Shown here in pieces: positions 30,856-45,711 of a stretch of 64,000 bases of DNA. Source of the stretch: Halostella litorea (lineage in GTDB: Archaea > Halobacteriota > Halobacteria > Halobacteriales > Natronoarchaeaceae); assembly GCF_004785955.1 (NCBI RefSeq), contig NZ_SJER01000004.1, positions 62,001 to 126,000 on the forward strand, written 5' to 3'. The position numbers were made by a program, and so were the translations under genes. A model generated the notes under the pieces. That model had not been told where the DNA came from. It did no database searches and saw only the letters and a program-made list of their open reading frames with translations. Positions within the stretch are counted from its first letter, which is position 1. The number at the start of each line of letters is the position of its first letter.

Positions 30856-31815
30856 CTACGCGGTCTGTTCGAGCAGGCCGCGCATGTATCCGACCGCAAA
30901 GAGGCGTCCCTTGGTGTGGTAGCCGGGGTTCGAGTTGTCCTCGCCGACCATCGTCGGGACGTGGTCGGGCCGCATCACCACGTCGTCGTCGACGGCGTCC
31001 TGGTAGGCCTCCATCGCCGCGAGCATGTCCGTCGGGCCGTCGTCGTGCCACGTCTCGACGAAGTCGTCGGCGTCGCCGTCCACGTCGCGGAAGTGGACGA
31101 AGTTGATCCGGTCGCCGAACCGGCGGATCGTCGCCGGCACGTCGACGCCCATCGCCGCGAAGTTGCCCTGGCAGAACGTGATGCCGTTGTGCTCGCTGTC
31201 GTAGGCGTCGAGCACGCGCTGGTACGCCTCGGGGCTGTTGACGATCCGGGGCACGCCACCCAGCGACTCGCGGGGCGGGTCGTCGGGGTGGAGGCCGAGT
31301 TTCACGCCGGCCTCCTCCGCGACGGGGGTGACCTCCTGCAGGAAGTACTCCAGGGCCTCCCAGATCTGCTCCCGGGTCGCGTCGATGGCCTGTTCGCCCC
31401 CGTTCCGGTGCATCCGGTCGTCGGAGTAGGCGGTCACGAGCGACCCGCCGCGGTCCTCGACGTGGGCCTCGGTCCGCGCCCACCGGATGCCGACCATCCA
31501 GTCGTAACAGACCACGGGGATGTCGAGGCGGCCGCAGTCCCGGAGGAACTGCTTGAACTCGGCGATGTCCTCGTCGCGGCCGTCGAGCCCGAGCCTGACG
31601 CGGTCCGTCAGGGGGACGCTCCCCTCGATGACGCTGATTTCGAGGCCCGCGTCCTCGTACCAGTTCTTCAGATGCAGCAGGTCGTGATAGCTCCAGTCGG
31701 TCTTGTCGTCGCCGATCTCGAGCGTGTGCACCACGGCGCTGTCCACGCCCATCTGCTTGGCGAGCTTCCATCGATCGTCCGGTTGCGGCGGTAGGACTAC
31801 CGCTAGGTCGACCAT
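30856..31815 (-). CDS. uxuA: Mannonate dehydratase, short form
   Basis: A 319-residue UxuA-family enzyme that would convert D-mannonate to 2-keto-3-deoxygluconate in glucuronate catabolism. Metal and active-site motifs: GLHPDDPP (~190), FCQGNFAAMG, NFVHFRDVDG and MRPDHVPTM. It is shorter than the ~394-residue E. coli enzyme, as in other archaeal and Gram-positive forms. The start MVDLAVVLPPQ has a TATA-like TATTTATTC about 27 bases upstream. Divergent from an SDR that could be the fructuronate/mannonate reductase of the same route; that pairing is inferred. Confidence 0.87.
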   Translation of the reverse strand: MVDLAVVLPPQPDDRWKLAKQMGVDSAVVHTLEIGDDKTDWSYHDLLHLKNWYEDAGLEISVIEGSVPLTDRVRLGLDGRDEDIAEFKQFLRDCGRLDIPVVCYDWMVGIRWARTEAHVEDRGGSLVTAYSDDRMHRNGGEQAIDATREQIWEALEYFLQEVTPVAEEAGVKLGLHPDDPPRESLGGVPRIVNSPEAYQRVLDAYDSEHNGITFCQGNFAAMGVDVPATIRRFGDRINFVHFRDVDGDADDFVETWHDDGPTDMLAAMEAYQDAVDDDVVMRPDHVPTMVGEDNSNPGYHTKGRLFAVGYMRGLLEQTA

Positions 31816-31974
31816 AGAGTCACGAATTAGAACCACGAATAAATACCTTTCTTTTGGGCGGATTGCTGCCGGGTCGCCCGACGATACCCGACGACTTAGG
31901 GTAGCGTGGAGGCGTACCGCGGGGACAGGGGAAGATAGAAATACCGCGCCGTGCGAGCCCTTGACGGACCACGC

Positions 31975-32763
31975 ATGAGCGACACGTTCGAGGGAGAGGC
32001 GGCTATCGTCACGGGCGCATCGAGAGGCATCGGCAGCGGGATCGCGACCGAACTCGCAGAGCGGGGCGCGTCGGTGGTGGTCAACTACCGCTCCTCCGAG
32101 GACCGGGCGGAGGCGGTCGTCGACGAGATCAGGGACGACGGCGGCGAGGCCGTCGCCGTGCAGGCCGACGTGAGCGACGAGGACGACGTGGCGGCGATGG
32201 TCGAGGCGACCGTCGACCGCTACGGGTCGCTGGACGTGATGGTGAACAACGCGGGCATGACGACGCTCGGCCCGGCCGAGGAGATCGACCTCGACGACTG
32301 GCGGCGGGTGATAGACGTCGACCTGACCGGCGTGTTCATCGGCTGCCAGGCCGCGGGACGACAGATGCTGTCCCAGCCCGACGGCGGGTCGATCGTCAAC
32401 GTCGCGTCGATGATGGGCGAGATGGGCTTTCACATGCGAGCGCCGTACTGCGCGGCGAAGGCCGGCGTCATCAACCTCACCCGGACGCTCGCCGTCGAGT
32501 GGGCGACGGAGGACGTCACCGTGAACGCGCTGGCCCCCGGCTTCATCAAGACGGACATCACGGACCAGACCCAGGGGTCGGCGGGCTACACCGACGACGA
32601 CATCCGCCGGCGCACGCCGATGGCCCGGTACGGCACCGTCCAGGAGATGGCGAACTGCGTCGGCTTCCTCGCGCGGGGCGACACGTACGTCACCGGCGAG
32701 GTGCTTCGCGCCGACGGCGGCTGGACCTCCGACGCCTGGCGGTATCACGAGAACCGCGCGTAG
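31975..32763 (+). CDS. Short-chain dehydrogenase, sugar dehydrogenase-like
   Basis: A 262-residue classical SDR with GASRGIGSGIA (about 14-24), NNAGMTTLG, a catalytic Ser in NVASMMGE and YCAAKAG. The layout most resembles glucose 1-dehydrogenase- and rhamnose/fucose dehydrogenase-type SDRs. The gene is divergent from mannonate dehydratase and 93 bases upstream of a TRAP transporter on the same strand. It may be the first oxidative step for an imported hexose or 6-deoxyhexose, or a uronate-pathway reductase. Confidence 0.87.
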   Translation: MSDTFEGEAAIVTGASRGIGSGIATELAERGASVVVNYRSSEDRAEAVVDEIRDDGGEAVAVQADVSDEDDVAAMVEATVDRYGSLDVMVNNAGMTTLGPAEEIDLDDWRRVIDVDLTGVFIGCQAAGRQMLSQPDGGSIVNVASMMGEMGFHMRAPYCAAKAGVINLTRTLAVEWATEDVTVNALAPGFIKTDITDQTQGSAGYTDDDIRRRTPMARYGTVQEMANCVGFLARGDTYVTGEVLRADGGWTSDAWRYHENRA

Positions 32764-32856
32764 ACCAGCGAACGACCCGATACCGGTGTCGCGGGCGGAG
32801 ACATTCGCCCCAGGGGAAAGTTTTTTATCATTAACGCTGAACCAGTATGATGAACC

Positions 32857-33885
32857 ATGTCAGATGGGAATCCGCGGGTCAGTAGACGCTCGTTAGTCAA
32901 GGGACTCGGTACAGGCGCGATCGCGGCGACGGCCGGCTGCTCGATGCTCGGCGACCTCGGCGGGGGCGGCGGGGGCGACGGCGTCGAGATGACGATCGCA
33001 AGCACCTTCGAACCCGGCCACATCCTCGTGCAGGCCGCGGAGACGTTCAAGGAGGAGATCGAGTCGGAGTCCGACGGCGACGTCTCCGTCGAGATCAGCC
33101 CCGGCGGGTCGTACGGCTCCGAGGACGAGATCGGCGAGGTCGTCGCGCAGGGCGGCGTCGAGGCCCACTCCGCGGGCAGCTTCCCGTACTTCCAGTTCGC
33201 GCCGGAGTACTGGTTCTTCGGGTGCCCGTTCGTCCTCTCGGGCTACGACCAGTTGCTGTCGGTGCTGGAGAGCGACGAGATGCAGGAGGCCCACGACGCA
33301 CTCGTCGAGAACGGCGACCAGCGCCCGATCGGCCAGCAGATCTACCGCGGCGCGCGGAACTTCACATCCAACACGCCGATCCAGGGGCCGAGCGACGTCG
33401 ACGGGCTCAACCTCCGCCTGCCGGAGCTGGACCCGTGGGTGGCCATCTGGGAGGAAGTGGGCGCGTCACCAACGCCGGTCGCGCTGGACGAGCTGTACAG
33501 CGCGCTCGAACAGGGGACCGCGGACGCCTCCGAGGGCGGCGCGGAGCAGATCAGCTCGTTCAACCTCTACGAGGTCCAGAGCCACCTGAGCCTCACGGAG
33601 CACCTGATCGCCAACGGGAACATCTACATCAACGACACGTTCTACCAGGGCCTCGACGAGACCTACCAGGACATGATCATGGAGGTCGGCCAGTCGGCGA
33701 CGTCCTCCGCGGCGGAGCAGTCCCAGTCCCGCGAGGAGGAACTCATCCAGGGCCTCGCCGACGAGGGCATGGAGATAGTCGAGGACGTGGACGTCGAGGC
33801 GTTCCAGGAGCAGGCGGCACCGGCGGTCGAACAGCTGTTCGAGAACACGTGGGCGTTCGACTGGGAAACCGTCCAGAACATGTGA
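32857..33885 (+). CDS. dctP: TRAP transporter substrate-binding lipoprotein DctP
   Basis: A 342-residue extracytoplasmic solute receptor. N-terminus: RRSLVKGLG (Tat-like) and a lipobox ending TAGC (about residue 28). The DctP fold is clear, with the substrate-contact region YRGARNFTSN and LNLRLPELDPW, in which the Arg binds the carboxylate of the ligand. It heads a dctPQM set. The ligand should therefore be an organic or sugar acid, probably a hexuronate or aldonate given the dehydratases around. TTTTTTATC upstream is a likely TATA element. Confidence 0.92.
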   Translation: MSDGNPRVSRRSLVKGLGTGAIAATAGCSMLGDLGGGGGGDGVEMTIASTFEPGHILVQAAETFKEEIESESDGDVSVEISPGGSYGSEDEIGEVVAQGGVEAHSAGSFPYFQFAPEYWFFGCPFVLSGYDQLLSVLESDEMQEAHDALVENGDQRPIGQQIYRGARNFTSNTPIQGPSDVDGLNLRLPELDPWVAIWEEVGASPTPVALDELYSALEQGTADASEGGAEQISSFNLYEVQSHLSLTEHLIANGNIYINDTFYQGLDETYQDMIMEVGQSATSSAAEQSQSREEELIQGLADEGMEIVEDVDVEAFQEQAAPAVEQLFENTWAFDWETVQNM

Positions 33886-33938
33886 GCCGGCGGCAGTCGT
33901 AAAGGTAACCACCCGAGACACCCACCGTTTCATTTACA

Positions 33939-34505
33939 ATGGAAATCGACCAATCACTCGACCTGAAGCGCGACCGGCTTTTCGATAGGGTCGTCCTGTA
34001 CAGCGCGACGGCGCTGTTTACGATCACGATCGTTTTGACCACGCTCCAGGTCTTCATTCGGCTGTTGAACCTCCCCACGTTCGGCTTCCTGCACTGGACC
34101 GAACCGGCGGCGCGGTTCGTGCTCATCATCGCGACCTACCTGGGTGCCGCCGTCGCCGTCCGGAACAACGAACACATCGCGATCCGGTTCCTGCTCGAAC
34201 GGCTCACGAACTGGAAACCGTGGCTCGGCTACCTGGTTCAGGTGGTCGGGAAGCTGATCGTCATCGGCTTCCTCTGGATCGCCCTGGAGGGGACGATCAT
34301 CACGACCGTCGACGACTGGGCGACGTCGATCGGCGGGATCGGCTTCGTCACGTCGGGCCACCTCTACCTCGGGATCGGGATCGGCATCGGGCTGATGCTC
34401 ATCTACGCGGTGATCGACTTGGTGGGGCTGGCCCGCGAACTCCTGGCGATGCGGACGGCGGACACCGCCAGCGGCCAGATCGAGGAGGGGATGGCCGATG
34501 AGTGA
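33939..34505 (+). CDS. dctQ: TRAP transporter small membrane subunit DctQ
   Basis: A 188-residue four-helix membrane protein, the small subunit of the TRAP importer. Helices at about 22-44, 58-80, 100-122 and 140-163; family-typical EHIAIRFLLERL follows helix two. It lies between dctP and dctM and its end overlaps the dctM start by 8 bases, so the two membrane subunits are translated together, as needed for a 1:1 complex. Confidence 0.92.
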   Translation: MEIDQSLDLKRDRLFDRVVLYSATALFTITIVLTTLQVFIRLLNLPTFGFLHWTEPAARFVLIIATYLGAAVAVRNNEHIAIRFLLERLTNWKPWLGYLVQVVGKLIVIGFLWIALEGTIITTVDDWATSIGGIGFVTSGHLYLGIGIGIGLMLIYAVIDLVGLARELLAMRTADTASGQIEEGMADE

Positions 34506-35802
34506 ACTGCTCATCATCGGGACCCTGTTCCTCGGGACGCTGCTGGTGCTGTACGCGCTCGGCGTCCCGGTCGGGATCGCCATGGGCGCGACCTGCGTCC
34601 TGATGATGGTCTCGCCGTACGGGCGCGGCCTCAACTACGGCCTGATCGCCCAGCAGTTGCTGTACGGGCTCAACAGCTTCACGCTGCTTGCGATCCCGTT
34701 TTACCTCCTGTTGGGACGGCTGATGAACCGCATCGGGATGACACAGCGGATCTTCGCCCTGGCGAACGCCTTCGTCGGGCAGTTCCGCGGCGGCATCGCC
34801 CACGTCAACATCGTCGCCAGCATGATCTTCTCGGGCATGTCCGGCCTCGCCGTCGCCGACGCCGCGGGACTGGGCCGCGTCGAGTACACCGCGATGCGCG
34901 ACCAGGGGTACGACAAGGACATCTCGCTGGGCGTCACCGGCTCCTCGGCGATCATCGGGCCGATCATCCCGCCGAGCGTGCCGATCATCATCTACGCCGT
35001 GCTGGCCGAGGAGTCGATCGGCCAGCTGTTCCTCGGGGGGATCCTCCCGGGGATCCTCATCGGCGTGTTCCTGATGGCGCTCGTCTTCCTGTTCGTCCAC
35101 CTGCGCGGCTACGAGACGGAGGACTCCTTCGACCTCGGGGAGGCGTGGCGGTGCTTGAAGGAAGCGGTGTTCCCCTTGCTTGCCCCGATCCTCATCATCG
35201 GCGGGATCCTCACCGGGACGTTCACCGCGACCGAGGCGGGCGCGATCGCCGTCGTCTACACCGTCCTCCTCGGGATGTTCGTCTACAACGAACTCTCGCT
35301 GCGGGGGCTGTTCGAGGAGCTCCAGTACGGGATGGTCGAGACGTTCTCGCTGACGTTCATCGTCGGCGTCGCGTCGCTGTACGGGCTGGTCGCGCTCCAG
35401 CTCCAGCTTCCGATCCTGATGGCGGAGTCGATCACGAACTTCTCCAGCGACCCGACGGTCGTGATCTTCCTGCTCGTCGGGCTCCTGCTGGTGGTCGGGA
35501 CGTTCATGGAGACGATCGCGGCGATCACCATCCTCGTCCCGATCTTCATGCCGATCCTCGACATCGCGGGGATCGACCCGCTCCACTTCGGCATCGTGAT
35601 GATCCTGACGCTGATGCTGGGCCTGCTGACGCCGCCGTTCGGGGTCATCCTCTTCGTGCTGGAGAAGGTGACCGACGCGAGCTTGGAGGAGGCGATGAAG
35701 GCCGTGTTGCCCTACTACGTGCCGATCCTCCTGGTGTTGCTGCTCACCATCCTCGTCCCGGAGATCGTCACGTACCCGGCGACCGAACTGCTGGGCGCCT
35801 GA
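34498..35802 (+). CDS. dctM: TRAP transporter large permease DctM
   Basis: A 434-residue, about 12-helix membrane protein that uses the sodium gradient to import the DctP-bound acid. Visible family segments: IPFYLLLGRLMNRIGMTQR, GSSAIIGPIIPPSVPIIIYA and TPPFGVILFVLEKV near the end. The length is standard. It follows dctQ with an 8-base overlap. The next genes are dehydratase-like, which suggests an aldonate or uronate substrate. Confidence 0.93.
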   Translation: MSELLIIGTLFLGTLLVLYALGVPVGIAMGATCVLMMVSPYGRGLNYGLIAQQLLYGLNSFTLLAIPFYLLLGRLMNRIGMTQRIFALANAFVGQFRGGIAHVNIVASMIFSGMSGLAVADAAGLGRVEYTAMRDQGYDKDISLGVTGSSAIIGPIIPPSVPIIIYAVLAEESIGQLFLGGILPGILIGVFLMALVFLFVHLRGYETEDSFDLGEAWRCLKEAVFPLLAPILIIGGILTGTFTATEAGAIAVVYTVLLGMFVYNELSLRGLFEELQYGMVETFSLTFIVGVASLYGLVALQLQLPILMAESITNFSSDPTVVIFLLVGLLLVVGTFMETIAAITILVPIFMPILDIAGIDPLHFGIVMILTLMLGLLTPPFGVILFVLEKVTDASLEEAMKAVLPYYVPILLVLLLTILVPEIVTYPATELLGA

Positions 35803-35957
35803 CCGGGTAATCGGGTTCCGGTCGCGCCCGTTTTCGCGGCGGTCGTCGTGACCGCCGCCGTCGTCCGACCGCCTAGCCGTTCGGCCCCCGAAACCGACGC
35901 GGACGGGACGTTGCGGCGACGGAAACGCTTTTCCCCCGGCGACGTGGAGAGTCGCCC

Positions 35958-37145
35958 ATGCCAACGTTCGAGGGCTACCCGCGGGACAGCGGCCCCGCCG
36001 GGGTCCGGAACTACGTCGCAGTGATACCCACGTCGGTCGCCGCGTCCGCGGTCGCCAAAGCGGTCGCGGACCGCGCCGGGGAGCACGTCCGGGCGACGCC
36101 CCACCAGATGGGGATCGACCCGCCGGCCGGCGCGCGCGAGCAGATAGAGCGGACGCTGACGGGCGTGGGGCGAAACCCCAACGTCGGCGCGGCGGTCGTC
36201 GTCGGCCTCGGTCCCGAGTCCGTCGACGCCGAGTCGATCGCCGACGGGATCGCGGCGGCCGGCCGCCGCGTCGAGACGCTCTCGATCCGCGAGGCCGGCG
36301 GGACCGAGGCGGCGCTCGACGCGGGCGTCGACCTGGCCAAGGAGTGCTGGGAGGGGATCGCGGACGCCCGCCGGGAGGAGTGCGACGCGAGCGAACTCGT
36401 GTTCGGCGTCGAGTGTGGCGGCTCGGACGCGACCAGCGGGATCGCGGCCAACCCCGCCGTCGGCGCGGCCTGCGACCGGCTGGTGGAAGACGGCGGCACG
36501 GCCACGTTCTCCGAGACGCCGGAGTTCATCGGCGCCGAACACATCCTCGCGGAGCGCTGTGCCGACGCGGAGGTCCGCGAGCGGCTCCTAAACCGCGTCG
36601 AGCGCCGGGAGTCGATGGCGGAGCTGATGGGCGTCGACCTGCGGGGCGCACAGCCCAGCCCCGGCAACCAGGAGGGCGGGTTGACGACGATAGAGGAGAA
36701 GAGCCTCGGAGCCATCTCCAAGGGCGGGACGACGCCGATCCGCGGGATCGTCGACTACGCCGAGCGCCTCCCGGTCGGCGGCGGGCTGGTGCTGATGGAC
36801 ACGCCGGGGTACGACATCGAGAGCGTCGTCGGCAAGGTGGCCGGCGGGGCGCAGGTCGTCGCCTTCACGACCGGCCGCGGGTCGACGACGGGGAACCCGC
36901 TCGCGCCGGTGATCAAGGTGACGGGGAACCCGAAGACCGCGGACCGGCTGGCGTCGAACATGGACGTGGACGCCAGCACCGTCATCGACGGCGAGCCGGT
37001 CGAGTCGGTCGGCGACCGCGTGTACGACACCCTGCTGCGCGTCGCCAGCGGCGAGCGGACCGCCGCCGAGCAGCGCCGGCTGGAGGAGTTCGCGGTCAAC
37101 GAGTTGCAGCCGAACGAACTGGCGGAACTGCGGGGGGACGCATGA
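35958..37145 (+). CDS. UxaA/GarD-family dehydratase, large subunit A (C-terminal half residues kept)
   Basis: A 395-residue protein of the altronate/galactarate dehydratase large-domain family. The second half of the usual motifs is intact: VECGGSDATSG (151-161), ETPEF.GAEH, PSPGN.EGGLTTIEEKSLG (233-251), DTPGYD (281-286) and TTGRGS (304-309). The first-half residues are not: HQMGID stands where H.HGCG is usual, and GLGPE (83-87) where GLGCE is usual. It overlaps the SAF-domain subunit (ATGA-type, 4 bases), which in turn overlaps a second, complementary large subunit. It probably acts only as part of that complex. TATA-like CTTTTCC is 26 bases from the ATG. Confidence 0.85.
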   Translation: MPTFEGYPRDSGPAGVRNYVAVIPTSVAASAVAKAVADRAGEHVRATPHQMGIDPPAGAREQIERTLTGVGRNPNVGAAVVVGLGPESVDAESIADGIAAAGRRVETLSIREAGGTEAALDAGVDLAKECWEGIADARREECDASELVFGVECGGSDATSGIAANPAVGAACDRLVEDGGTATFSETPEFIGAEHILAERCADAEVRERLLNRVERRESMAELMGVDLRGAQPSPGNQEGGLTTIEEKSLGAISKGGTTPIRGIVDYAERLPVGGGLVLMDTPGYDIESVVGKVAGGAQVVAFTTGRGSTTGNPLAPVIKVTGNPKTADRLASNMDVDASTVIDGEPVESVGDRVYDTLLRVASGERTAAEQRRLEEFAVNELQPNELAELRGDA

Positions 37146-37456
37146 AAGGCACCGTCCTCGGCGACGTCGGCCTGCACATGGCGGACGCGGACAACGTCGT
37201 GACGGCCATCGACGACCTGGAGGCCGGCGCGGAACTGCCGTACGACGGCGAGACGGTCGAAGTCGCGGAGGCCGTCCCGTTCGGCCACAAGATCGCGCTG
37301 GTGCCTCTGGAACCGGGCGACGCCGTCGTGAAGTACGGCGAGACGATCGGGGAGGCGGTCGAGCCGATCGCCCCCGGCGAGTGGGTCCACACGCACAACT
37401 GCGAGAGCACGCGCGGGCGGGGCGACCGCGCCGCGGAGGACGGGGAGGTGGCCTGA
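37142..37456 (+). CDS. UxaA-family SAF-domain small subunit
   Basis: A 104-residue SAF-domain protein equivalent to the N-terminal domain of altronate dehydratase. Diagnostic segments: AVPFGHKIALVPL, then VVKYGETIG and GEWVHTHNCES at the end. In many bacteria this domain is fused to the large one; here it is a separate subunit between two large-subunit genes, overlapping both (ATGA upstream, TGATG downstream). This tight coupling indicates a fixed three-part enzyme. The dehydrated sugar acid is not known. Confidence 0.88.
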   Translation: MKGTVLGDVGLHMADADNVVTAIDDLEAGAELPYDGETVEVAEAVPFGHKIALVPLEPGDAVVKYGETIGEAVEPIAPGEWVHTHNCESTRGRGDRAAEDGEVA

Positions 37457-38592
37457 TGTCGGCACCCACCGGGCGAGAGGCGGCCGCGCCCCTCGGCGAG
37501 CGGTTCGACGCCTACCGGCGCGACGACGGCGGCCTCGGCGTGCGGAACCGCGTGCTGGTCGTCCCGTCGGTGATCTGCTCGCACATCGTCGCCGAGCGGG
37601 TCGCCGAGGCGAGCGACCGCGCCGTCTGCGCCCCGCACGACCACGGCTGCGGGCAGGTCGGGGCCGACCACGCACAGACCGAGCGGACGCTGCTGAACCT
37701 GGCCCGCAACCCGAACGTCGCGGGGGCGACCGTCGTCGGACTGGGCTGTGAGCACCTCCAGAGCGGGCCGTTCGCCGAGCGAGTCGGCGAGCACGGCGTG
37801 CCGGTCCGCGAGACGGCCATCCAGGACGCCGGCGGCACCGACGCGGCGCTCGACGCCGGCGTCGAGGCGACCGAGGAACTGGCCGACGCGGCGGCCGCGG
37901 CGGACCGGACGGAGGCGGCGCTCGCGGACCTGACCGTCGGCGTCGTGAGTTCGGACCTGGACCCGACGACCCGCGACGTCGCGGACCCGGTCGTGGGCGA
38001 GGCCGTCGACGCGCTGGTCGACGCCGGCGCGCGCGTCGTCGTCGCCGGGACCGAGCGGCTCGCACCGCACCGGGACGCGGCCGCCGGACGTGCGGCGCAC
38101 GGGGAGGTCGCCGAGGCGATGCGGGCGGCCGGCGACCGCGACGCCGGGCGACCGGGCAACGCCGAGCGGATCGCCCGCCGCGCCGCGGCCGCCGAGTTCG
38201 ACGAGGTGGTCGGGACGTGGGGGCACAGCGCGGTCGACGAGTTCGTGCCGTACGGCGGGCGGGCGACCGTCGAGGAGGGGCTGGCGCTGGTCGACTCCCC
38301 CTCGCGCTTCGAGGAGGCCGCGACGGCGCTCGCGGCGGCCGGCGCGTCCGTCGTCGTCCACGTCACCGCCGACGGGATCACGACGGGCCACCCGGTCGTC
38401 CCGGTCGTGAAGGTGACCGGCGACGGGACGACGGCGGAGGCGCTCGGGGGCGACATCGACCTCGACGCCCGCGCCGACGGCCCCGACGAACTGCTGGCGG
38501 AGCTTTCGCGCGTCGCCGCGGGCGGCCGGACGGCGAGCGAGGGCCACGGGCTGACGGCGTTCGCGATAAACCGCGTCGGCCCGTCGCTGTGA
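37456..38592 (+). CDS. UxaA/GarD-family dehydratase, large subunit B (N-terminal half residues kept)
   Basis: A 378-residue paralogue of subunit A. It keeps the first-half motifs missing from A: C41 in PSVICSHIVAERV, H61-D-H63-G-C65-G, GLGCE (95-99) and IQDAGGT (122-128). The second-half motifs are lost: CGGSD is VSSDLD, ETPE..GAEH and PSPGN..GGLTTI are gone, and DTPGYD is DSPSRF; only VVPVVKVTGD remains. A and B thus look like complementary halves of an ancestral homodimer. The start overlaps the small-subunit stop (TGATG). Confidence 0.85.
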   Translation: MSAPTGREAAAPLGERFDAYRRDDGGLGVRNRVLVVPSVICSHIVAERVAEASDRAVCAPHDHGCGQVGADHAQTERTLLNLARNPNVAGATVVGLGCEHLQSGPFAERVGEHGVPVRETAIQDAGGTDAALDAGVEATEELADAAAAADRTEAALADLTVGVVSSDLDPTTRDVADPVVGEAVDALVDAGARVVVAGTERLAPHRDAAAGRAAHGEVAEAMRAAGDRDAGRPGNAERIARRAAAAEFDEVVGTWGHSAVDEFVPYGGRATVEEGLALVDSPSRFEEAATALAAAGASVVVHVTADGITTGHPVVPVVKVTGDGTTAEALGGDIDLDARADGPDELLAELSRVAAGGRTASEGHGLTAFAINRVGPSL

Positions 38593-38610
38593 GGTCGGCG
38601 GGTCCCAAAG

Positions 38611-38618
38611 CATAATAC
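38611..38618 (+). promoter_or_regulatory. TATA-like element before the leader ORF and alcohol dehydrogenase
   Basis: CATAATAC is ~30 bases before the ATG at 38645, consistent with leaderless transcription starting at the small leader frame rather than at the dehydrogenase start 116 bases further on. Confidence 0.45.
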
Positions 38619-38644
38619 CCGGCCCCGACGAGTGTGCCACGACG

Positions 38645-38764
38645 ATGAACGAGGGACCGAAGCGTTCGGGAGAGCGACGGCAGCCAGAGGACCGGCCCGC
38701 CGGCGACGGGCGGTCGGATCGAAGCGACGACCGGAGGCGGGCGCGGCCGGGGTGGGCAGCGTGA
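38645..38764 (+). CDS. Possible 39-residue leader peptide
   Basis: A small open frame (MNEGPKRSGERRQ... ending PGWAA), very rich in Arg, Asp and Gly and probably disordered. A TATA-like element lies at the right distance for a leaderless ATG, and its TGA overlaps the GTG of the following dehydrogenase (GTGA). That is the arrangement of translational coupling. No homology is recognised. It may be a regulatory leader or a chance frame in the 5' leader. Confidence 0.4.
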   Translation: MNEGPKRSGERRQPEDRPAGDGRSDRSDDRRRARPGWAA

Positions 38765-39786
38765 GGGCGGCCGAACTCGTCGGTGCGAAGGAGTTCGAAC
38801 TGCGCGAGCGGGAGCGCCCGACGCCGGGCGAGTCGGAGGTGCTCGTCGAGGTGAGCGACGTGGGCATCTGTGGCTCGGACGTGCACTGGTACGAGCACGG
38901 CCGCATGGGCGACCGCGTCGTCGACGAGCCACTGGTGCTGGGCCATGAGAGCGCGGGCACCGTCGTCGAGACGGGGGCGGCCGTCGACGGCCTCGCCGTC
39001 GGCGACGCGGTCACCGTCGAACCCGGAGTCCCCTGCGGGGAGTGCGAACACTGCCGCCGCGGCGCGTACAACCTCTGCCCGGACGTGTCGTTCATGGCGA
39101 CGCCCGGCACGGACGGCGCGTTCCGGGAGTACGTCGCCTGGCCGGCGGAGTACGTGTACGCCCTCCCCGACGCGGTGTCGACCCGGGAGGGCGCACTGTG
39201 CGAGCCGCTGAGCGTCGGCATCCACGCCGTCCGCCGCGGGGAGGTCGGCGTTGGCGACGCGGTGCTGGTCATGGGCGCGGGGCCGATAGGGCTGCTCGCG
39301 GCCGACGCGGCGCGGGCGGCCGGCGCGACGGACGTCGCGGTGGTCGACGCGGTCGAGTCGAAGCTCGACCGGGCCGTCGAGCGGGGGGCCGACCTCGCGG
39401 TCGACAGCCGCGAGACGGAGCCGGCCGCGGCGGTCCGCGAGGCGTTCGGCGCGGGGGCCGACGTCGCCATCGAGGCGACCGGCGCGCCGCCCGCCATCGA
39501 GGCGACACTCGACGTGCCGCGGGCCGGCGGCACCGCGGTGCTGGTCGGCCTCGCGCCCGACGCCGAGGTGCCGGTCGACACGTTCGAACTGGTCCGGGGG
39601 CAACACGACGTCCGCGGGAGCTACCGCTTCGCGAACACGTATCCGACCGCCGTCTCCCTGCTCGAACGCGGCGCCGTCGACGCCGCGGGGCTCGTGGACT
39701 TCGAGGCCCCGCTCGACCGGATCGGCGAGGCGTTCGACCGGGCCGCCGAGCCCGACGCCGTCAAGGGCGTCATCGGCGTCGACTGA
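38761..39786 (+). CDS. Zinc-dependent medium-chain alcohol/polyol dehydrogenase
   Basis: A 341-residue MDR enzyme of the sorbitol/threonine dehydrogenase group. Catalytic zinc ligands: C in GICGSD, H-E in LGHESAG; structural zinc cysteines in CGECEHCRRGAYNLC; nucleotide motif GAGPIGLLA (about 170-178). It would oxidise a secondary alcohol of a polyol or sugar acid. The start is taken as GTG 38761, giving the standard N-terminus; upstream in-frame GTG codons at 38752 and 38632 are alternatives. It follows the dehydratase subunits and is probably part of the sugar-acid pathway. Confidence 0.87.
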   Translation: MRAAELVGAKEFELRERERPTPGESEVLVEVSDVGICGSDVHWYEHGRMGDRVVDEPLVLGHESAGTVVETGAAVDGLAVGDAVTVEPGVPCGECEHCRRGAYNLCPDVSFMATPGTDGAFREYVAWPAEYVYALPDAVSTREGALCEPLSVGIHAVRRGEVGVGDAVLVMGAGPIGLLAADAARAAGATDVAVVDAVESKLDRAVERGADLAVDSRETEPAAAVREAFGAGADVAIEATGAPPAIEATLDVPRAGGTAVLVGLAPDAEVPVDTFELVRGQHDVRGSYRFANTYPTAVSLLERGAVDAAGLVDFEAPLDRIGEAFDRAAEPDAVKGVIGVD

Positions 39787-39840
39787 CCGCCGGCGTCGAC
39801 CCCCGGAGGGAGAACATTTATATTCGAACGGACACCCCCA

Positions 39841-40272
39841 ATGCATATGGTTATCGTGGCAGCCATCAGCGGCTCCGACGGGTCGAAAGACGTCGCGGCG
39901 CAGGCGGACGAGCTCGCGAGGGCGTACGGCGACGAGCTCCACCTCGTCCACGTCATCGAGGAGACCGAGTACACACGCCGGGTCGAGAAGGAGTCCAGCA
40001 CGCGGGAGACGGACTCCGGCTCCATCGAGGCGACGGCCGCGGCCGAGGCGACCGCGGGGCTCGACGAGGTCATCGGGGACCACGAGGTCGTCGGCCGGGT
40101 CGGGAACCCGAGCAAGTCCGTCGTCGGGTACGCCGACGAGGTCGACGCCCGCTACCTCGTCCTCGGCGGGCGGTCGCGGTCGCCCGCCGGGAAGGCGCTG
40201 TTCGGCAGCGTCACGCAGTCGATCCTCCTGAACACGGAGCGGCCGGTCGTCACGGTCACGGGAGGGGAGTGA
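39841..40272 (+). CDS. Universal stress protein, small
   Basis: A 143-residue UspA-like protein. The nucleotide region is a variant, LGGRSRSPAGKALFGSVTQ, keeping the G-x9-G-S spacing. A TATA-like ATTTATATTC is at about 39814-39823; the ATG at 39841 or the second ATG at 39847 could be the start. It sits between the dehydrogenase and the lactate utilisation genes with its own promoter. Function is probably a general stress response. Confidence 0.83.
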   Translation: MHMVIVAAISGSDGSKDVAAQADELARAYGDELHLVHVIEETEYTRRVEKESSTRETDSGSIEATAAAEATAGLDEVIGDHEVVGRVGNPSKSVVGYADEVDARYLVLGGRSRSPAGKALFGSVTQSILLNTERPVVTVTGGE

Positions 40273-40374
40273 CCATTCCCCACCCCACCATGACGGCGCC
40301 GCCGCACTCGGCCGGGGCGAACCGTCGCCCGCCGACCGGTCACACCGCGACCGACGAACGACTCCGGAGGAACG

Positions 40375-40902
40375 ATGTCTGAGGGACGAGCGGCCACCGA
40401 TCCGGTCGCGGAGTTCCGGCAGTCGCTGTCGGACCTCGACACGCCGTCGACGGTCGTCGCCCCCGACGAACTGGGGGCGGCGCTCGAGGACGTGGTCGAG
40501 ACGCCCGCAGTCGGCGCGGAACTCCCCTTCGACGACCTCTCCCTCGCGGACGCGCCGGTAACGCTCGACCCGTCCCCCGCCCAGTTGCGGGCGGCGGCGT
40601 CGGGCGTGACGGGGTCGCGCATGGGGATCGCGTCGCTCGGCACGGTCGCCGTCGAGTCGCGGGCCGAGGGCGACGAGGTCGTCGGGCTGTACCCGTCACA
40701 GCACGTGGCCGTGATCAAGGCGAGCGACATCAGGGCGGACCTCGCGGACGCCTTCGACTGGCTCCGGGCCGAGTTCGAGGCCGGCCGGCGGTCGTTCGTC
40801 CTCGCGACCGGGCCGAGTTCGACCGGGGACATGGGCGCGCTCGTGCAGGGCGTCCACGGCCCCGAAGCGGTTCACATCGTCATCGTCAGGGACAATGAGT
40901 GA
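40375..40902 (+). CDS. lutC: LutC-type LUD protein, copy 1
   Basis: A 175-residue LUD-domain protein, the LutC component of the LutABC iron-sulfur L-lactate oxidation complex. The C-terminal signature FVLATGPSSTGDMGALVQGVHGP is split here as VLATGPSSTGDMGA and VQGVHGP; the ligand region SRMGIASLGTVAVES is also present. A Shine-Dalgarno-like GGAGGA precedes the ATG. It overlaps the lutBA fusion by 8 bases. Placed beside a predicted lactate-producing pathway. Confidence 0.88.
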   Translation: MSEGRAATDPVAEFRQSLSDLDTPSTVVAPDELGAALEDVVETPAVGAELPFDDLSLADAPVTLDPSPAQLRAAASGVTGSRMGIASLGTVAVESRAEGDEVVGLYPSQHVAVIKASDIRADLADAFDWLRAEFEAGRRSFVLATGPSSTGDMGALVQGVHGPEAVHIVIVRDNE

Positions 40903-43108
40903 CTCACAACGACCGGATGCCGACCGCATCCGCACGCTGCTGGCATCGGAGGGCGACGAGATAAAGGAGAACACCCGGCTGTTCAACGCCGGGCGGTACG
41001 ACGCCGTGAAGGACGTCGGGGAGGACGTCCACGAGCGGAACCGGACCCGGGCGCGGGAGATAAAGGAGGACGCCATCGAGCGCCTCCCGGAGCTCATCCA
41101 TCAAACGCGAAACGCCGTCGAGGCAAACGGCGGGACGGTGTACGTCGCGGACGACGCCGCCGACGCGAACCGGTACATCGCCGAGGTGGCGGAGGCGAAG
41201 GACGCCGGCTCAGTCGTGAAATCGAAGTCGATGACGACCGAGGAGATAGACCTCAACGAGGCCCTCGAGGACGGCGGGCTGGAGGTCTGGGAGACCGACC
41301 TCGGGGAGTTCGTCGTCCAGGTCGCCGAGGAGTCGCCGTCCCACATCGTCGGCCCCTCGCTGCACAAGTCCCGCGAGGAGATAACGGAGTTGTTCGAGCG
41401 GGAGTTCGACCCCGACGAACCGCTCGACTCCGCCCAGAAGCTGACCGCGTTCGCCCGGGAGTTCCTCGGCGAGCGCATCGACGACGCGGAGGTCGGCATC
41501 ACGGGCGCGAACTTCGTCATGGCCGAGAGCGGGTCCATCGCGCTCGTGACCAACGAGGGGAACGCCCGCAAGTGCGCGTCGATCCCCGACACGCACGTCG
41601 CCGTCGCGGGGATCGAGAAGATCATCCCCTCGGTCGCCGAACTGGAGCCGTTCGCGGAGCTCATCTCGCGGTCGGCCACCGGGCAGGAGATCCCCCAGTA
41701 CCTGTCGCTGCTGACGCCGCCGGTCGACACGCCGACGGTCGACTTCGACCGGCCGGACGAGCCCGGCTTCGGGGGCGGAGACGGGGAGCGGGACTTCCAC
41801 CTCGTGCTCATCGACAACGGCCGGCGGGCGATGCGCCAGGACGAAGACCTCCGGGAGACGCTGTACTGCATCCGGTGTGGCGCGTGTGCGAACTCCTGTG
41901 CGAACTTCCAGTCGGTCGGCGGCCACGCCTTCGGCGGCGAGACGTACACGGGCGGCATCGCCACCGGTTGGGAGGCCGGGATCGAGGGCAACGACGTCGC
42001 CGAGGAGTTCAACGACCTCTGTACCGGCTGTTCGCGCTGCGTGAACGCCTGTCCGGTGAAGATCGACATCCCGTGGATCAACACGGTCGTCCGCGACCGC
42101 ATCAACCGCGGGAAGGACCCGGGGTTCGACGACCTGCTCGTCGACGGGCTCGTGCCCGACGAGGAGGAGAGCGGCACGCCGCTGCGCAAGCGGTTCTTCG
42201 GGAACTTCGAGACCGTCGCCAAACTCGGGAGCGCGACGGCCCCCCTCTCCAACGCCGTCGCCTCGACCGGCATCGCCCGGAAGGCGATGGAGTCGGTACT
42301 GGGCGTCGACGCCCGGCGCGACCTGCCGGAGTTCGAGCGCACGACGCTCAAGGACTGGGCCGCGGAGCGCGAGAGCCGCGTCGCGGACCCCGACCGGCGC
42401 GTCGCGCTGTACCCGGACGTGTACACGAACTACGTCCAGACCGAGCGCGGCAAGGCCGCCGTCCGCGTGCTGGAGGCGCTGGGCTGTGAGGTGGTCGTCC
42501 CCGACGTCGGCGGGTCCGGCCGCGCACCGCTGTCGCAGGGGATGATCGCGACGGCCGAGTCGAAGGCCGAGGACGCCGCGGCGTCGCTGCTCCCGTACGT
42601 TGAGGAGGGGTACGACGTGGTCGTCGTCGAGCCGAGCGACCTGGCGATGTTCCGCCGGGAGTACGAGAAGCTGCTCGACGCCGGGACCCAGGAGCGCCTC
42701 GACGAGGGGAGCTACGAGGTGCTGGAGTACGTGTTCGGGCTGCTGGAGAACGGCGCGGACGCCGACGCGCTGCCGGCCGGCGACGGGCACGGCGTCGCGT
42801 ACCACAGCCACTGCCAGCAGCGGACGCTCGGGCTGGAGACGTACACCGAGACGGTGCTCGACCGGCTCGGCTACGACGTGTTGACCTCCGACGTGGAGTG
42901 TTGCGGCATGGCCGGCAGCTTCGGCTACAAGTCGGAGTACTACGAGCTGAGCATGGACGTCGGCGAGACGCTCGCCGAGCAGTTCGAGCCGGAGGCCGAC
43001 GAGCGTACGGTCGTCGCCAGCGGCACCTCCTGCATGGAGCAACTCGACGCGCTCCTGTCGCCGGGGACGCGCCACCCGGTCGAACTCCTCGACCCCGTCC
43101 GCCGCTGA
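40895..43108 (+). CDS. LutB-LutA fusion, L-lactate oxidation, copy 1
   Basis: A 737-residue fusion. Residues ~60-300 are a LUD domain (GITGANFVMAESG). Then come two 4Fe-4S motifs, CIRCGACANSC near 325 and CTGCSRCVNACP near 375, as in LutB. The C-terminal ~250 residues are LutA-like, with YHSHCQQRTLG and ECCGMAGSFG near 668 (CCG domain); the first CCG motif of normal LutA is replaced by GGSGRAPLSQG with no cysteines. It should transfer electrons from L-lactate, producing pyruvate, together with LutC. A paralogue is at 54750. Confidence 0.88.
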   Translation: MSDSQRPDADRIRTLLASEGDEIKENTRLFNAGRYDAVKDVGEDVHERNRTRAREIKEDAIERLPELIHQTRNAVEANGGTVYVADDAADANRYIAEVAEAKDAGSVVKSKSMTTEEIDLNEALEDGGLEVWETDLGEFVVQVAEESPSHIVGPSLHKSREEITELFEREFDPDEPLDSAQKLTAFAREFLGERIDDAEVGITGANFVMAESGSIALVTNEGNARKCASIPDTHVAVAGIEKIIPSVAELEPFAELISRSATGQEIPQYLSLLTPPVDTPTVDFDRPDEPGFGGGDGERDFHLVLIDNGRRAMRQDEDLRETLYCIRCGACANSCANFQSVGGHAFGGETYTGGIATGWEAGIEGNDVAEEFNDLCTGCSRCVNACPVKIDIPWINTVVRDRINRGKDPGFDDLLVDGLVPDEEESGTPLRKRFFGNFETVAKLGSATAPLSNAVASTGIARKAMESVLGVDARRDLPEFERTTLKDWAAERESRVADPDRRVALYPDVYTNYVQTERGKAAVRVLEALGCEVVVPDVGGSGRAPLSQGMIATAESKAEDAAASLLPYVEEGYDVVVVEPSDLAMFRREYEKLLDAGTQERLDEGSYEVLEYVFGLLENGADADALPAGDGHGVAYHSHCQQRTLGLETYTETVLDRLGYDVLTSDVECCGMAGSFGYKSEYYELSMDVGETLAEQFEPEADERTVVASGTSCMEQLDALLSPGTRHPVELLDPVRR

Positions 43109-43204
43109 CGGACGCCGGGCGCTCCTTCCGCCCGCGGACGACGACTGCGACGGCGGCCGGCCGCGTGGGCAAACTGTTTGTACCGGGGCCGCGACAGGCC
43201 GTTC

Positions 43205-44299
43205 ATGCACGATGCAGCAACGGCCACCGTGCGGAGCGTCGACACCAGCCTCTACCGCGTGCCGAACGAGGAGGTGCTGGAGGACGCGACCCAGTCGTTC
43301 GACACGCTGGAGATAGTGGCGCTGACCGCGAGGTCCGACGCCGGCCACGCCGGCCTCGGGTTCACCTACACCATCGGCCGCGGCGGGGCGGCGACGAAGC
43401 GCTTCCTCGACGACGTGCTCGCGCCGCGACTGGAGGGCCAGCCGGTCGCCCCGAAGACCGTGCGGGCGAACCTCCGGGGCGAGACCACGTTCATCGGCCG
43501 CGAGGGGATAAGCGAGTTCGCCGTCGCCGCCGCGGACATCGCGCTGTGGGACCTCCTCGGGAAGACCGCGGGGCTGCCGCTGTGCGAACTGCTCGGCGGC
43601 GCGCGGGAGCCGGTGCGGATGTACGAGACGGACGGCGGCTGGCTGCAGTACGACGCCGACGCGCTGGTCGAGAACGCCGAGGGGATCGCCGACGCCGGGT
43701 TCGCCGGCATGAAGATGAAGGTCGGGTCGTCGCTCGACCGCGACGTCGAGCGCGTCCGGGCCGTCCGGGAGACTCTCCCGGCCGACCTTGACCTGATGCT
43801 GGACGCGAACTGCTCGTACTCGGTGCCGGAGGCCCGCGCGCTGGCCGGGCGACTCGACGACGTGGCGATCACCTGGCTGGAGGAGCCGCTGCCAAAGGGC
43901 GACTACGCGTCGTACGCCGACCTGCGCAGCCGCGTCGACGTGCCGATAGCCACCGGGGAGAACTTCTACAACGAGACGCAGTTCCGGCAGGTTCTCCGGC
44001 GGGACGCCGTCGACTACGTCCAGCCCGACGTCTGCCGCGTCGGCGGGATTACGCCGTGGGTGAACGTCGCCGAGCAGGCGGCCGCGACGGGCGTCCCCGT
44101 GTCGCCCCACTACATCGAACCGCTCCACGCGCACCTCGCGTGTGCCTTCGACAACGTGCCCTACATCGAACACCACTCGACGGTGTTGGACGAACTGCTG
44201 GCCGACCCCGTCCCGGTCGAGGGCGGGGAGATAACGCCCCCGGACCGGCCCGGCCACGGGATGACCTTCGAGGGCGTCGAGACGTACCGGGCCGACTGA
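43205..44299 (+). CDS. Enolase-superfamily sugar-acid dehydratase
   Basis: A 364-residue member of the mandelate racemase group. Visible: the KMKVG Lys motif (~170), metal ligands in MLDANCSYS, WLEEPLP and ATGENFYN, and the SPHYIEPLHAH C-terminal motif with a catalytic-type His. Members dehydrate aldonates such as fuconate, rhamnonate, galactonate or gluconate to 2-keto-3-deoxy acids. Lying between lactate oxidation genes and a dehydrogenase plus FAH-family hydrolase, a 6-deoxyhexonate (fuconate/rhamnonate) is a good candidate. An upstream in-frame ATG nine codons earlier is less likely. Confidence 0.87.
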   Translation: MHDAATATVRSVDTSLYRVPNEEVLEDATQSFDTLEIVALTARSDAGHAGLGFTYTIGRGGAATKRFLDDVLAPRLEGQPVAPKTVRANLRGETTFIGREGISEFAVAAADIALWDLLGKTAGLPLCELLGGAREPVRMYETDGGWLQYDADALVENAEGIADAGFAGMKMKVGSSLDRDVERVRAVRETLPADLDLMLDANCSYSVPEARALAGRLDDVAITWLEEPLPKGDYASYADLRSRVDVPIATGENFYNETQFRQVLRRDAVDYVQPDVCRVGGITPWVNVAEQAAATGVPVSPHYIEPLHAHLACAFDNVPYIEHHSTVLDELLADPVPVEGGEITPPDRPGHGMTFEGVETYRAD

Positions 44300-44338
44300 C
44301 GGCCGCCTGCTTCGGTTGCTCGTCCGTCGGAACCGCTC

Positions 44339-44355
44339 GTCCATCGATGGTGGAC
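44339..44355. promoter_or_regulatory. IclR-type operator, site 5 (perfect)
   Basis: GTCCA-TCGATGG-TGGAC, perfect 5-bp arms and 7-base centre, 40 bases after the stop of the dehydratase gene. It is in a convergent region where no annotated promoter is expected. Confidence 0.55.
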
Positions 44356-44507
44356 AGTGCGTGTGAAGAAACGTTAGGAACCACTCCGTGAGAAATTACA
44401 GTATTAGGATTGTAAACCGAACGCCGTTTCGTCGGTTATACATAAAAGATAGATACATATAGAGCACCCGTGAGGCCGCGAACGGTGGCTTCCGCGGAAC
44501 AGCACTC

Positions 44508-44524
44508 GTTCAGTATCGTTGGAC
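44508..44524. promoter_or_regulatory. IclR-type operator, site 6
   Basis: GTTCA-GTATCGT-TGGAC, one mismatched arm pair; its reverse complement begins GTCCAACGAT like sites 1-3. It lies 37 bases before the 3' end of the minus-strand dehydrogenase. A/T-rich TATA-like DNA (44437-44465) lies on its left. Confidence 0.55.
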
Positions 44525-44560
44525 ACGCTTTCGGACCCGGCGAGCGTGGGCGACGGTCCG

Positions 44561-45589
44561 TCAGTCGAACGAGAACACCGGTTTACACGTCTCGGAGGCG
44601 AGGAACGCCTCGAACGCCGCCGTCGGTTCGTCGGCGTCGAACGACCGGTCGGCCATCGCGGTCGGGTCTATCGACCCGTTGTCCATCAGCCGTATCGCCT
44701 GCTCGAAGTTCCGCCAGCGGGACCCGTACGACGTCTCGACCCGGATCTCGCCGCGCACGACCGGCGTCACGTACATCTCGCTGGGTTCCCCGGGGAGGCC
44801 GACGACGACCACTTCGCCGCCCTTCCGGACGTGCTCGACGGCCTCCTCCAGGCCGGTGTGGTGGCCGGTCGTGTCGAAGACGACGTCGAACCCGCGGCCG
44901 TCGGTGAACGCGTCCATCCGGTCCCCGGCACCCTCCGCGGCAGCGTTGACGGTCGGGAGCCCCAGGTCCTCGACGAGCGGGAGCCGGTACGCCGTGTCCC
45001 GCCCGACGCCCGAGACCAGCACGTTCGCGCCCAGCGAGTCCGCGACCATCGCCACGAGCACGCCGATCGGTCCCGGCCCCTCGACGAGGACGTCGTCGCC
45101 GGGCGTGACGGAGGACTGCGTGAGCACCGCCCGCGTCGCGACGCTCGTCGGCTCCGTGAGCGCCGCCGCCCGCAGGGGGACGGAGTCGGGCACCCGGTGG
45201 ACGAACTCCTCGTCGACCGTCGTGTACTCCGCGTACGCCCCGTCCCGGTGCATCCCGGTGATCGAGAAGTCGGCGCACACGTTCGGCTGCCCGTTCCGGC
45301 ACTGGAAGCAGTCGCCGCAGTCGTGGACCGGTTCCTCGACCACGTGGTCGCCGACCGAGAACCGGGAGACGCCGTCGCCAACCGCGGCGACCGTCCCGGC
45401 GTACTCGTGGCCCATGATCCGGGGGATGGCGATCCACTCGTACCCGCCCTCGTAGCCGTAGGCGTGGGCGTCGCTCCCGCAGAGGCCGGCACTGTGGACG
45501 TCGATGAGCACCTCGGTTTCGCCCGGCTCCGGCGTCTCGCGTCGCTGTACCTCGACCTCCTTCGGTCCCGTCTGTACGATCGCCTTCAT
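44561..45589 (-). CDS. Zinc-dependent medium-chain dehydrogenase, sugar-acid type
   Basis: A 342-residue MDR dehydrogenase. Catalytic zinc ligands in [11 protein letters not shown] and GHEYAG, structural zinc cysteines in [15 protein letters not shown], nucleotide motif EGPGPIGVL (about 170-178). Related enzymes oxidise idonate, threonine, galactitol or 2-keto-3-deoxy acids. Convergent with the enolase-superfamily dehydratase, divergent from the FAH-family gene. It could be the 2-keto-3-deoxy-fuconate/rhamnonate 4-dehydrogenase needed before a diketo-hydrolase. ATG 45589 is preferred to GTG 45595. Confidence 0.87.
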
Positions 45590-45711
45590 GGTCACTGGTC
45601 TCGTCCGTCCCCCGGTTCGGGACCCGGTGCCATGAAGCTACTGCCGGCCGCCGCGGGCGCGACCACCGGGGCATCAGAATGTTTTTCACGGTTGGGAGTG
45701 ACACCGCACGT

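Follow-up and report, generated by a model that had tools for sequence, protein, structure and literature searches.

A UxaA/GarD-type active site apparently divided between two large subunits in Halobacteria and bacteria

The window analyzed here, 64,000 nucleotides of a contig from the haloarchaeon Halostella litorea (NZ_SJER01000004.1, positions 62,001 to 126,000 of the forward strand), encodes two large subunits of the UxaA/GarD dehydratase family, referred to as A and B, together with a small SAF-domain subunit located between them. The conserved residues of the family are shared out between the two large subunits: B carries the first three of the four family cysteines and a conserved glutamine, and A carries the fourth cysteine and a further set of conserved second-half residues. 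The same complementary states recur in bacteria, and in certain Actinomycetota both halves are joined in a single chain. These features are best explained, with fairly good confidence, by an obligate A·B·SAF aldonate dehydratase whose composite active site would be formed in trans. The division itself is real and wider than was known to the original prediction, made from the letters of the window, and the interpretation offered there is the best available.

Locus architecture and division of conserved residues

The genes for A and SAF overlap by 4 bases and those for SAF and B by 1 base (Table 1), so that the re-read coordinates bear out the arrangement first described, with the SAF gene in the middle and overlaps of 1-4 bases. 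The domains that define the UxaA/GarD superfamily (COG2721-type), namely SAF, GD_AH_second (PF04295) and GD_AH_C (PF20629), are all present across the three genes; A combines GD_AH_second with a complete GD_AH_C, and in B the latter Pfam profile is matched only over positions 113-240, its later half. No PF04295 gene beyond A and B was found in the source genome (3.75 Mb, 13 contigs). The SAF motifs GHK and HxHN are present in 36/36 haloarchaeal SAF proteins shorter than 130 amino acids, including those beside single large subunits. Escherichia coli galactarate dehydratase (6u7l) is the relative of solved structure matched by both large subunits (E 7.8e-55 for A, 1.7e-14 for B) and the best Protein Data Bank sequence match of A, and the cut-off of the galactarate dehydratase equivalog TIGR03248 (730.85 bits) was reached by none of the three proteins (A 218.6, SAF 48.5, B 72.5). 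Three weak matches of A to a designed repeat protein were dismissed as noise. The AlphaFold models of A (predicted local distance difference test, pLDDT, 94.5; predicted template modelling score, pTM, 0.94) and B (pLDDT 94.9; pTM 0.93) also match 6u7l best, with query-based TM-scores of 0.77 and 0.73-0.76, respectively, indicating a GarD-like fold in both. B is therefore predicted to keep this fold although its third-domain site is eroded, which would suit the role of a structural partner.

The alignment used for residue comparison combined A and B with homologues from haloarchaea, UxaA and GarD of E. coli, other relatives, and loci from Actinomycetota and Bacillota; the relatives from named genomes were the best 80 of at least 592 contigs, ranked by likeness to A. 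Against this background, B of the window contains C41, C65, C98 and Q123 and lacks the residues that A has at C153, E186, E189, P233, G240, K248 and K255, and A shows the reverse, retaining this whole set and lacking the three cysteines and the equivalent of Gln123. No single large subunit of the pair thus holds all four family cysteines; B has three, A has one, and jointly they are complete. In haloarchaeal A proteins the first, second and third cysteine positions are occupied by A/T/S, T/A/I/R/S/V and T/P, with Ile at the second in the window.

Alignment to both E. coli enzymes thereby confirms the core of the original prediction, that A keeps the second-half residues and B the first-half cysteines, and narrows it on either side. 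A was said to have lost its first-half cysteine and histidine residues: the three cysteines and one glutamine are indeed gone, and the histidine is not, as H49 is kept in 40/40 haloarchaeal A proteins, which removes the histidine from the list of divided residues. The GLGxE glutamate, whose motif (GLGPE) had been counted among the losses, is likewise kept in A. The proposed loss of the second-half set from B holds for C153, E186, E189, P233, G240, K248 and K255; several other second-half residues, the Asp of DTPG, T305, K320 and E371 among them, are found in B as well, and window B carries Asn at the N237 column.

The four cysteines and iron

The cysteines have been linked to iron in a characterized relative, D-arabinonate dehydratase C785_RS13685. 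As far as the excerpted text of that report goes, the protein is brown and was kept with Fe2+, displays a ferric high-spin electron paramagnetic resonance signal that was likened to that of rubredoxin, with more analysis called for, and was subjected to Cys-to-Ser changes (Fig. 2h legend) (PMC6336799). According to the same excerpts, superfamily-wide conservation extends only to Cys134, 173, 208 and 276, sulfolactate sulfo-lyase excepted, and these are proposed as iron ligands (PMC6336799). The objection that the divided residues may not be active-site positions therefore fails for these cysteines. Across 109 ordinary family rows the four columns are 100% Cys, which follows by construction since the rows were so chosen, and one other column reaches 50% (65%). 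The spacing of the four residues is 34-36/33-36/65-73 in the thirteen rows measured, including E. coli UxaA and GarD, 35-36/35-36/65-73 in the insert-bearing rows measured, and 39/35/68 in the published protein (PMC6336799). Judged by count and spacing, C41, C65 and C98 of B and C153 of A appear to correspond to the four superfamily cysteines.

Co-occurrence in Halobacteria

PF04295 is present in 51/292 Halobacteria genomes, 41 of which have two copies approximately 1.5 kb apart. These 41 genomes span six families of the order and are related, hence not independent; the order A, SAF, B is found in all of them, and the genes lie on the same strand in the 38/38 loci checked, a set that leaves out two split-gene loci and the window. 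Nine of the other ten genomes encode one large subunit only, of a different type, to which an additional gene of G073 also belongs. In the tenth (G236), a 295-amino acid frame (L077, 7592-8479) joins the front of A to the tail of B with no SAF found, representing a deletion remnant of the pair. Broken genes were also observed in G040 (A) and G189 (B), each split into two frames, and G185 has an additional unclassified fragment of 93 amino acids (L083). Apart from these remnant, fragment and split-gene cases, no intact A-type or B-type gene was found without its partner in the 51 family-bearing haloarchaeal genomes. The identity matrices of A and B are correlated (Pearson r 0.88, 38 pairs), as expected for partners and also for any two co-inherited genes.

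The pair was additionally observed in 11 haloarchaeal plasmid records (L253-L263), on replicons of 281-891 kb that are all classified as non-mobilizable by PLSDB (11/11). Among viral contigs, 37 pattern matches were obtained, none of which is a relative.

Recurrence in bacteria and natural fusions

The same complementary states were found in six bacterial loci: two from Alicyclobacillus (order A-SAF-B, one B being cut by a contig end), one from Lysinibacillus composti (B-SAF-A), and three from actinobacterial metagenome-assembled genomes (SAF-B-A, with B shortened to 270-279 amino acids). In five of these six genomes, some of which are drafts, the pair represents the only PF04295 genes found.

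Among 246 Actinomycetota genomes, 34 contain the family, and 16 of them encode a single frame of 895-955 amino acids bearing two PF04295 domains. In these fused SAF-A-B chains (L237-L252), the three cysteines are present in every B half (16/16) and in no A half (0/16), the fourth cysteine shows the opposite distribution (A halves 16/16, B halves 0/16), and the Gln123 equivalent is invariant alongside C41, C65 and C98 in all 16 B halves, from which N237, K248 and K255 are deleted. A custom SAF model detects a SAF stretch at the start of 16/16 chains (27-40 bits); the Pfam SAF domain was not listed in one fused chain scanned at E 1e-8. Both fused halves contain a longer C1-C2 stretch, as in GarD, which is absent from haloarchaeal A and B. 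In Bacillota, 76/249 genomes contain the family; two PF04295 genes about 6-7 kb apart were noted in G587, G589, G653 (G653:C48:5827-12194) and G745, and two partial PF04295 matches lie side by side in G748.

Column conservation and residue census

The complementarity was also assessed over whole alignments, a column being scored as kept if at least half of the rows of a group keep it. The first test used 109 reference rows picked for retaining the three first-half cysteines and six second-half residues; over 51 columns with at least 95% conservation, the haloarchaeal pair keeps 25 in both subunits, 22 in A only, 4 in B only and 0 in neither (Fisher p 6.7e-5). A repeat test was based on 127 single-copy, near-full-length rows picked regardless of residues, of which 106 keep all nine residues, 19 are without the first-half cysteines, and 2 are others. 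At the 80% cut-off (74 columns), the haloarchaeal pair keeps 37 in both, 32 in A only, 5 in B only and 0 in neither, the last against 2.2 expected under independent loss. The A-only columns lie in the third domain in 31/32 cases, and the B-only columns comprise three Cys and one Gln of the second domain plus one Val of the third (domain segregation, Fisher p 0.00037). At this cut-off, the three cysteines and the glutamine are B-only in all five lineages. The low count of columns lost by both is weak evidence alone; what makes the result strong is the segregation by domain, repeated across lineages.

A census of 272 rows gave three dominant states, with 109 rows keeping three cysteines and six second-half residues, 86 keeping none and six, and 68 keeping three and zero or one. 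The remaining nine are fragments, broken genes or affected by an undetermined base: the two G040 A pieces (L034), a G189 B piece (L053), a cut open reading frame (L091), the G236 deletion frame (L077), two pieces of a broken gene (L114), a broken frame (L186) and a row with an undetermined base (L162). Rows entered the census by score thresholds, those of the Actinomycetota and Bacillota surveys only if shorter than 560 amino acids. The B genes of L101 and L042 are cut by contig ends, and the pair tests omit both of these together with L034 A and L053 B. Two genomes are represented twice (L087 and L089 duplicate L051 and L068, with identical A proteins), and six rows are identical overall. In Vulcanisaeta distributa JCM 11216 (L132, 4992-6166), one family gene appears as two overlapping frames, each covering one domain, which may reflect either a genuine split or a frame error of the draft sequence; both the census and the comparison of unpaired and paired rows include it twice, as one A-type and one B-type row.

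Origins of the division

Trees were inferred from sampled rows, 81 for domain 2 and 53 at full length, and contain long branches. In the domain-2 tree, one ordinary planctomycete protein joins the fused A and fused B halves in a group (99/85) that is separate from the haloarchaeal pair, and the sisterhood of the two halves is weaker (94/47); fused A again groups with the planctomycete protein at full length (97/91). The full-length tree also places Lysinibacillus A outside a group of haloarchaeal and other bacterial A proteins (96/86). In approximately unbiased (AU) tests, for which the constrained groups were picked after viewing the sequences, a single clade of haloarchaeal and Lysinibacillus A is rejected (p 0.0015), which points to repeated origin. 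Single clades were not rejected for haloarchaeal with fused A (p 0.0665), haloarchaeal with the other five bacterial A (p 0.051), or, in domain 2, all A (p 0.189) and all B (p 0.204). A single origin of all pairs is not settled by these tests. The split probably had at least two origins and probably more, with no exact number claimed.

A broader proposition is that the same division of the iron site, three Cys and Gln in one part and one Cys with the rest in the other, arose several times independently, with both halves fused into a single chain in Actinomycetota; we favor this proposition only slightly over its negation. It would mean that the ordinary homodimer already builds each of its sites from two chains, and that any duplication could fall into an irreversible obligate heterodimer. 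The system offers a natural example, in three phyla and with the fusion as a built-in control, of duplication with complementary degeneration and forced complexity among catalytic residues. It predicts that chains of the UxaA/GarD family share their active site, and assigns each half.

Proposed composite enzyme and alternative interpretations

In the proposed mechanism, A, SAF and B would act jointly as a single UxaA/GarD-family aldonate dehydratase. Both large subunits would descend by duplication from one large subunit of an ancestral homodimer and would pair through the common fold that both retain; the second domain of GarD presumably makes the dimer contact. The second domain of B would supply C41, C65, C98 and Gln123, and the third domain of A would supply Cys153 together with the set E186, E189, N237, K248 and K255, so that the residues jointly rebuild the proposed four-cysteine iron site and further conserved positions, with SAF in its customary role. 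The ancestral dimer had two sites, of which one would now be complete and the other dead, and it is consequently proposed that each subunit is inactive alone. The original prediction had suggested such a partition of one ancestral active site between duplicated subunits. This is what best fits the complementary conservation, the lack of lone partners among the haloarchaeal genomes with the family, the reappearance of the split under different gene orders in two bacterial phyla, and the Actinomycetota fusions.

Several observations weigh against this interpretation. The reference rows of the first column test were chosen by residues, which favors the result and is why the test was repeated; at a 90% cut-off in the repeat the cysteine columns leave the set, because 19/127 reference rows are without them, and zero B-only columns remain. 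Loss of the first three cysteines from A is not proof alone, since the same 19 single-copy relatives also lack them. The counts of columns lost by both, out of 74, are 2 in Alicyclobacillus (expected 4.1), 1 in Lysinibacillus (3.6), 5 in the actinobacterial pairs (9.0) and 11 in the fused lineage (12.6). Glu is retained at the E186 column in 12/16 fused B halves, the second domain of A is without clear extra divergence, and pairs are rare in Bacillota, where whole-gene neighbors within 2 kb were found only in the Lysinibacillus genome used as center (249 genomes). Arg occupies the Gln position in 40/40 haloarchaeal A proteins, which resembles a new role rather than decay.

The principal alternative, which we regard as unlikely, holds that A and SAF form a complete cysteine-independent lyase of the SuyAB type and that B is a regulatory or stabilizing pseudo-subunit. 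SuyAB is the exception to four-cysteine conservation named in the excerpted report (PMC6336799), 19 unpaired single large subunits are without the first three cysteines with the second half kept, and the AU test does not reject a single clade of haloarchaeal A and seven of the unpaired, SuyB-like rows (p 0.46), which also counts against the divided site. However, these seven rows form a clade apart from A in the full-length tree (99/88), and Arg is found at the second-cysteine position in 19/19 unpaired rows but in only 3/67 paired A-type rows (the others having T, G, A, I, S, V or a gap; the 67 include the broken ordinary gene L132 and two genome repeats). Moreover, C41, C65, C98 and Q123 are invariant in 39/39 haloarchaeal B proteins and 16/16 fused B halves, which is hard to square with a mere scaffold; if A acted alone, the conserved half-site of B would be left without explanation. 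The SuyB label of the unpaired rows (L072-L076, L078-L082, L140, L143, L155, L191 and L193-L197), whose haloarchaeal members lie mostly in pair-less genomes, derives from sequence and neighbors rather than from a characterized protein. The neighbors of two unpaired rows, a malate/L-lactate-type dehydrogenase (L140) and a lactate racemase accompanied by a tripartite transporter (L155), fit sulfolactate-like substrates and are no proof of them.

That A and B are two separate enzymes acting on different substrates and sharing one SAF subunit would agree with the conservation and confident fold predictions of both, but their co-occurrence in fixed order, the natural fusion and the fact that residues missing from one are largely kept by the other make it very improbable. 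Still less credence is given to B as a decaying, functionless copy. Its third domain is the more divergent one (median identity 50.5% versus 59.6% for the second domain), and the few broken loci described above in G040, G189 and G236 could be taken as decay; this is opposed by the persistence of the pair in 41 genomes of six families, by the invariant half-site, and by B frames that are open except in G189, G236 and the contig-cut G121.

Gene neighborhood, substrate and annotation

The genes surrounding the pair in the window form a sugar-acid catabolic set (Table 1), whose order resembles that in Natrinema versiforme and whose LUD-type genes are of the lactate-oxidation type. Of ten other haloarchaeal records, nine have a KDG-aldolase-like gene (dihydrodipicolinate synthase family), mannonate dehydratase, GH28 or FAH gene nearby; the Halarchaeum record has none of these and a sugar transporter instead. 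In bacteria, the Planktophila pair adjoins an alpha-L-fucosidase and an aldolase-family gene, another pair lies near a flavin mononucleotide-dependent dehydrogenase, the Lysinibacillus pair is beside a KdgT permease, and one fused gene adjoins FAH, aldehyde dehydrogenase and SDR genes. On the basis of this gene context, the enzyme probably dehydrates a hexonate or 6-deoxyhexonate, yielding a 2-keto-3-deoxy acid, with substrates perhaps differing between lineages. In the plasmid records, A, SAF and B are each annotated as "UxaA family hydrolase", and one record has the front of B as a separate hypothetical protein; the three genes should instead be read as one enzyme, and any one of them expressed alone would be expected to fail.

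Table 1. Features of the pair and its surroundings, in window positions
Feature	Position	Strand	Basis or remark
Subunit A, UxaA/GarD-type large subunit, 395 amino acids	35958..37145	+	PF04295 and full PF20629
A Cys153 (ECGGSD), fourth family cysteine	36414..36416	+	C in 40/40 haloarchaeal A, 0/39 B
SAF small subunit, 104 amino acids	37142..37456	+	PF08666
Subunit B, UxaA/GarD-type large subunit, 378 amino acids	37456..38592	+	full PF04295, partial PF20629
B Cys41 (SVIC)	37576..37578	+	C in 39/39 haloarchaeal B, 0/40 A
B Cys65 (HDHGC)	37648..37650	+	C in 39/39 haloarchaeal B, 0/40 A
B Cys98 (GLGCE)	37747..37749	+	C in 39/39 haloarchaeal B, 0/40 A
B Gln123 (IQDAGGT)	37822..37824	+	Arg instead in 40/40 haloarchaeal A compared
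Surrounding sugar-acid catabolic gene set	30859..46443		profile matches and synteny
UxuA-like	30859-31794	-	
SDR	31951-32763		
TRAP DctP	32857-33885		
Small permease	33939-34505		named from syntenic Natrinema versiforme record
DctM	34498-35802		
Zn dehydrogenase	38632-39786		
Universal stress protein	39841-40272		named from syntenic Natrinema versiforme record
LUD-type gene	40375-40902		named from syntenic Natrinema versiforme record; no NCBIfam match at 1e-10
LutB/LdhH-like gene	40895-43108		
Enolase-superfamily dehydratase	43178-44299		
Second Zn dehydrogenase	44561-45595	-	
FAH hydrolase	45679-46443		matches include 2,4-didehydro-3-deoxy-L-rhamnonate hydrolase, below that model's cut-off

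Comparison with known systems

No UxaA/GarD enzyme with two unlike large subunits was reported in the open-access literature searched, among the matches listed. The canonical enzymes, as represented by 6u7l, resemble A, SAF and B taken jointly in having SAF, second and third domains, the same fold and the same conserved residues; they differ in that one chain holds all residues, which here are split over two large subunits with SAF separate. The same contrast applies to D-arabinonate dehydratase C785_RS13685, which shares the four proposed iron-ligand cysteines with the pair and, in the excerpts of its report, carries them on one chain instead of two (PMC6336799). SuyAB resembles A in its separate SAF and large subunits and in cysteines reported there as not conserved (PMC6336799). 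Unlike the pair, it has one kind of large subunit, with Arg at the second-cysteine position in SuyB-like rows (a mark derived in this analysis) and no B partner; A of the window has Ile at that position and is not a sole large subunit, since B beside it has the first three cysteines.

Outside this superfamily, mitochondrial processing peptidase is a heteromer of paralogues with a divided or one-sided active site. Deoxyhypusine synthase of trypanosomes, which acts with a dead paralogue, is described in the excerpted source as a heteromer of unequal paralogues (PMC3663545). Both resemble the pair in that a homomer has turned into a heteromer of unequal paralogues. Their folds are unrelated to the one considered here, however, and in the case of A and B neither paralogue is complete, the two complement each other, and the same split has turned up in several lineages.

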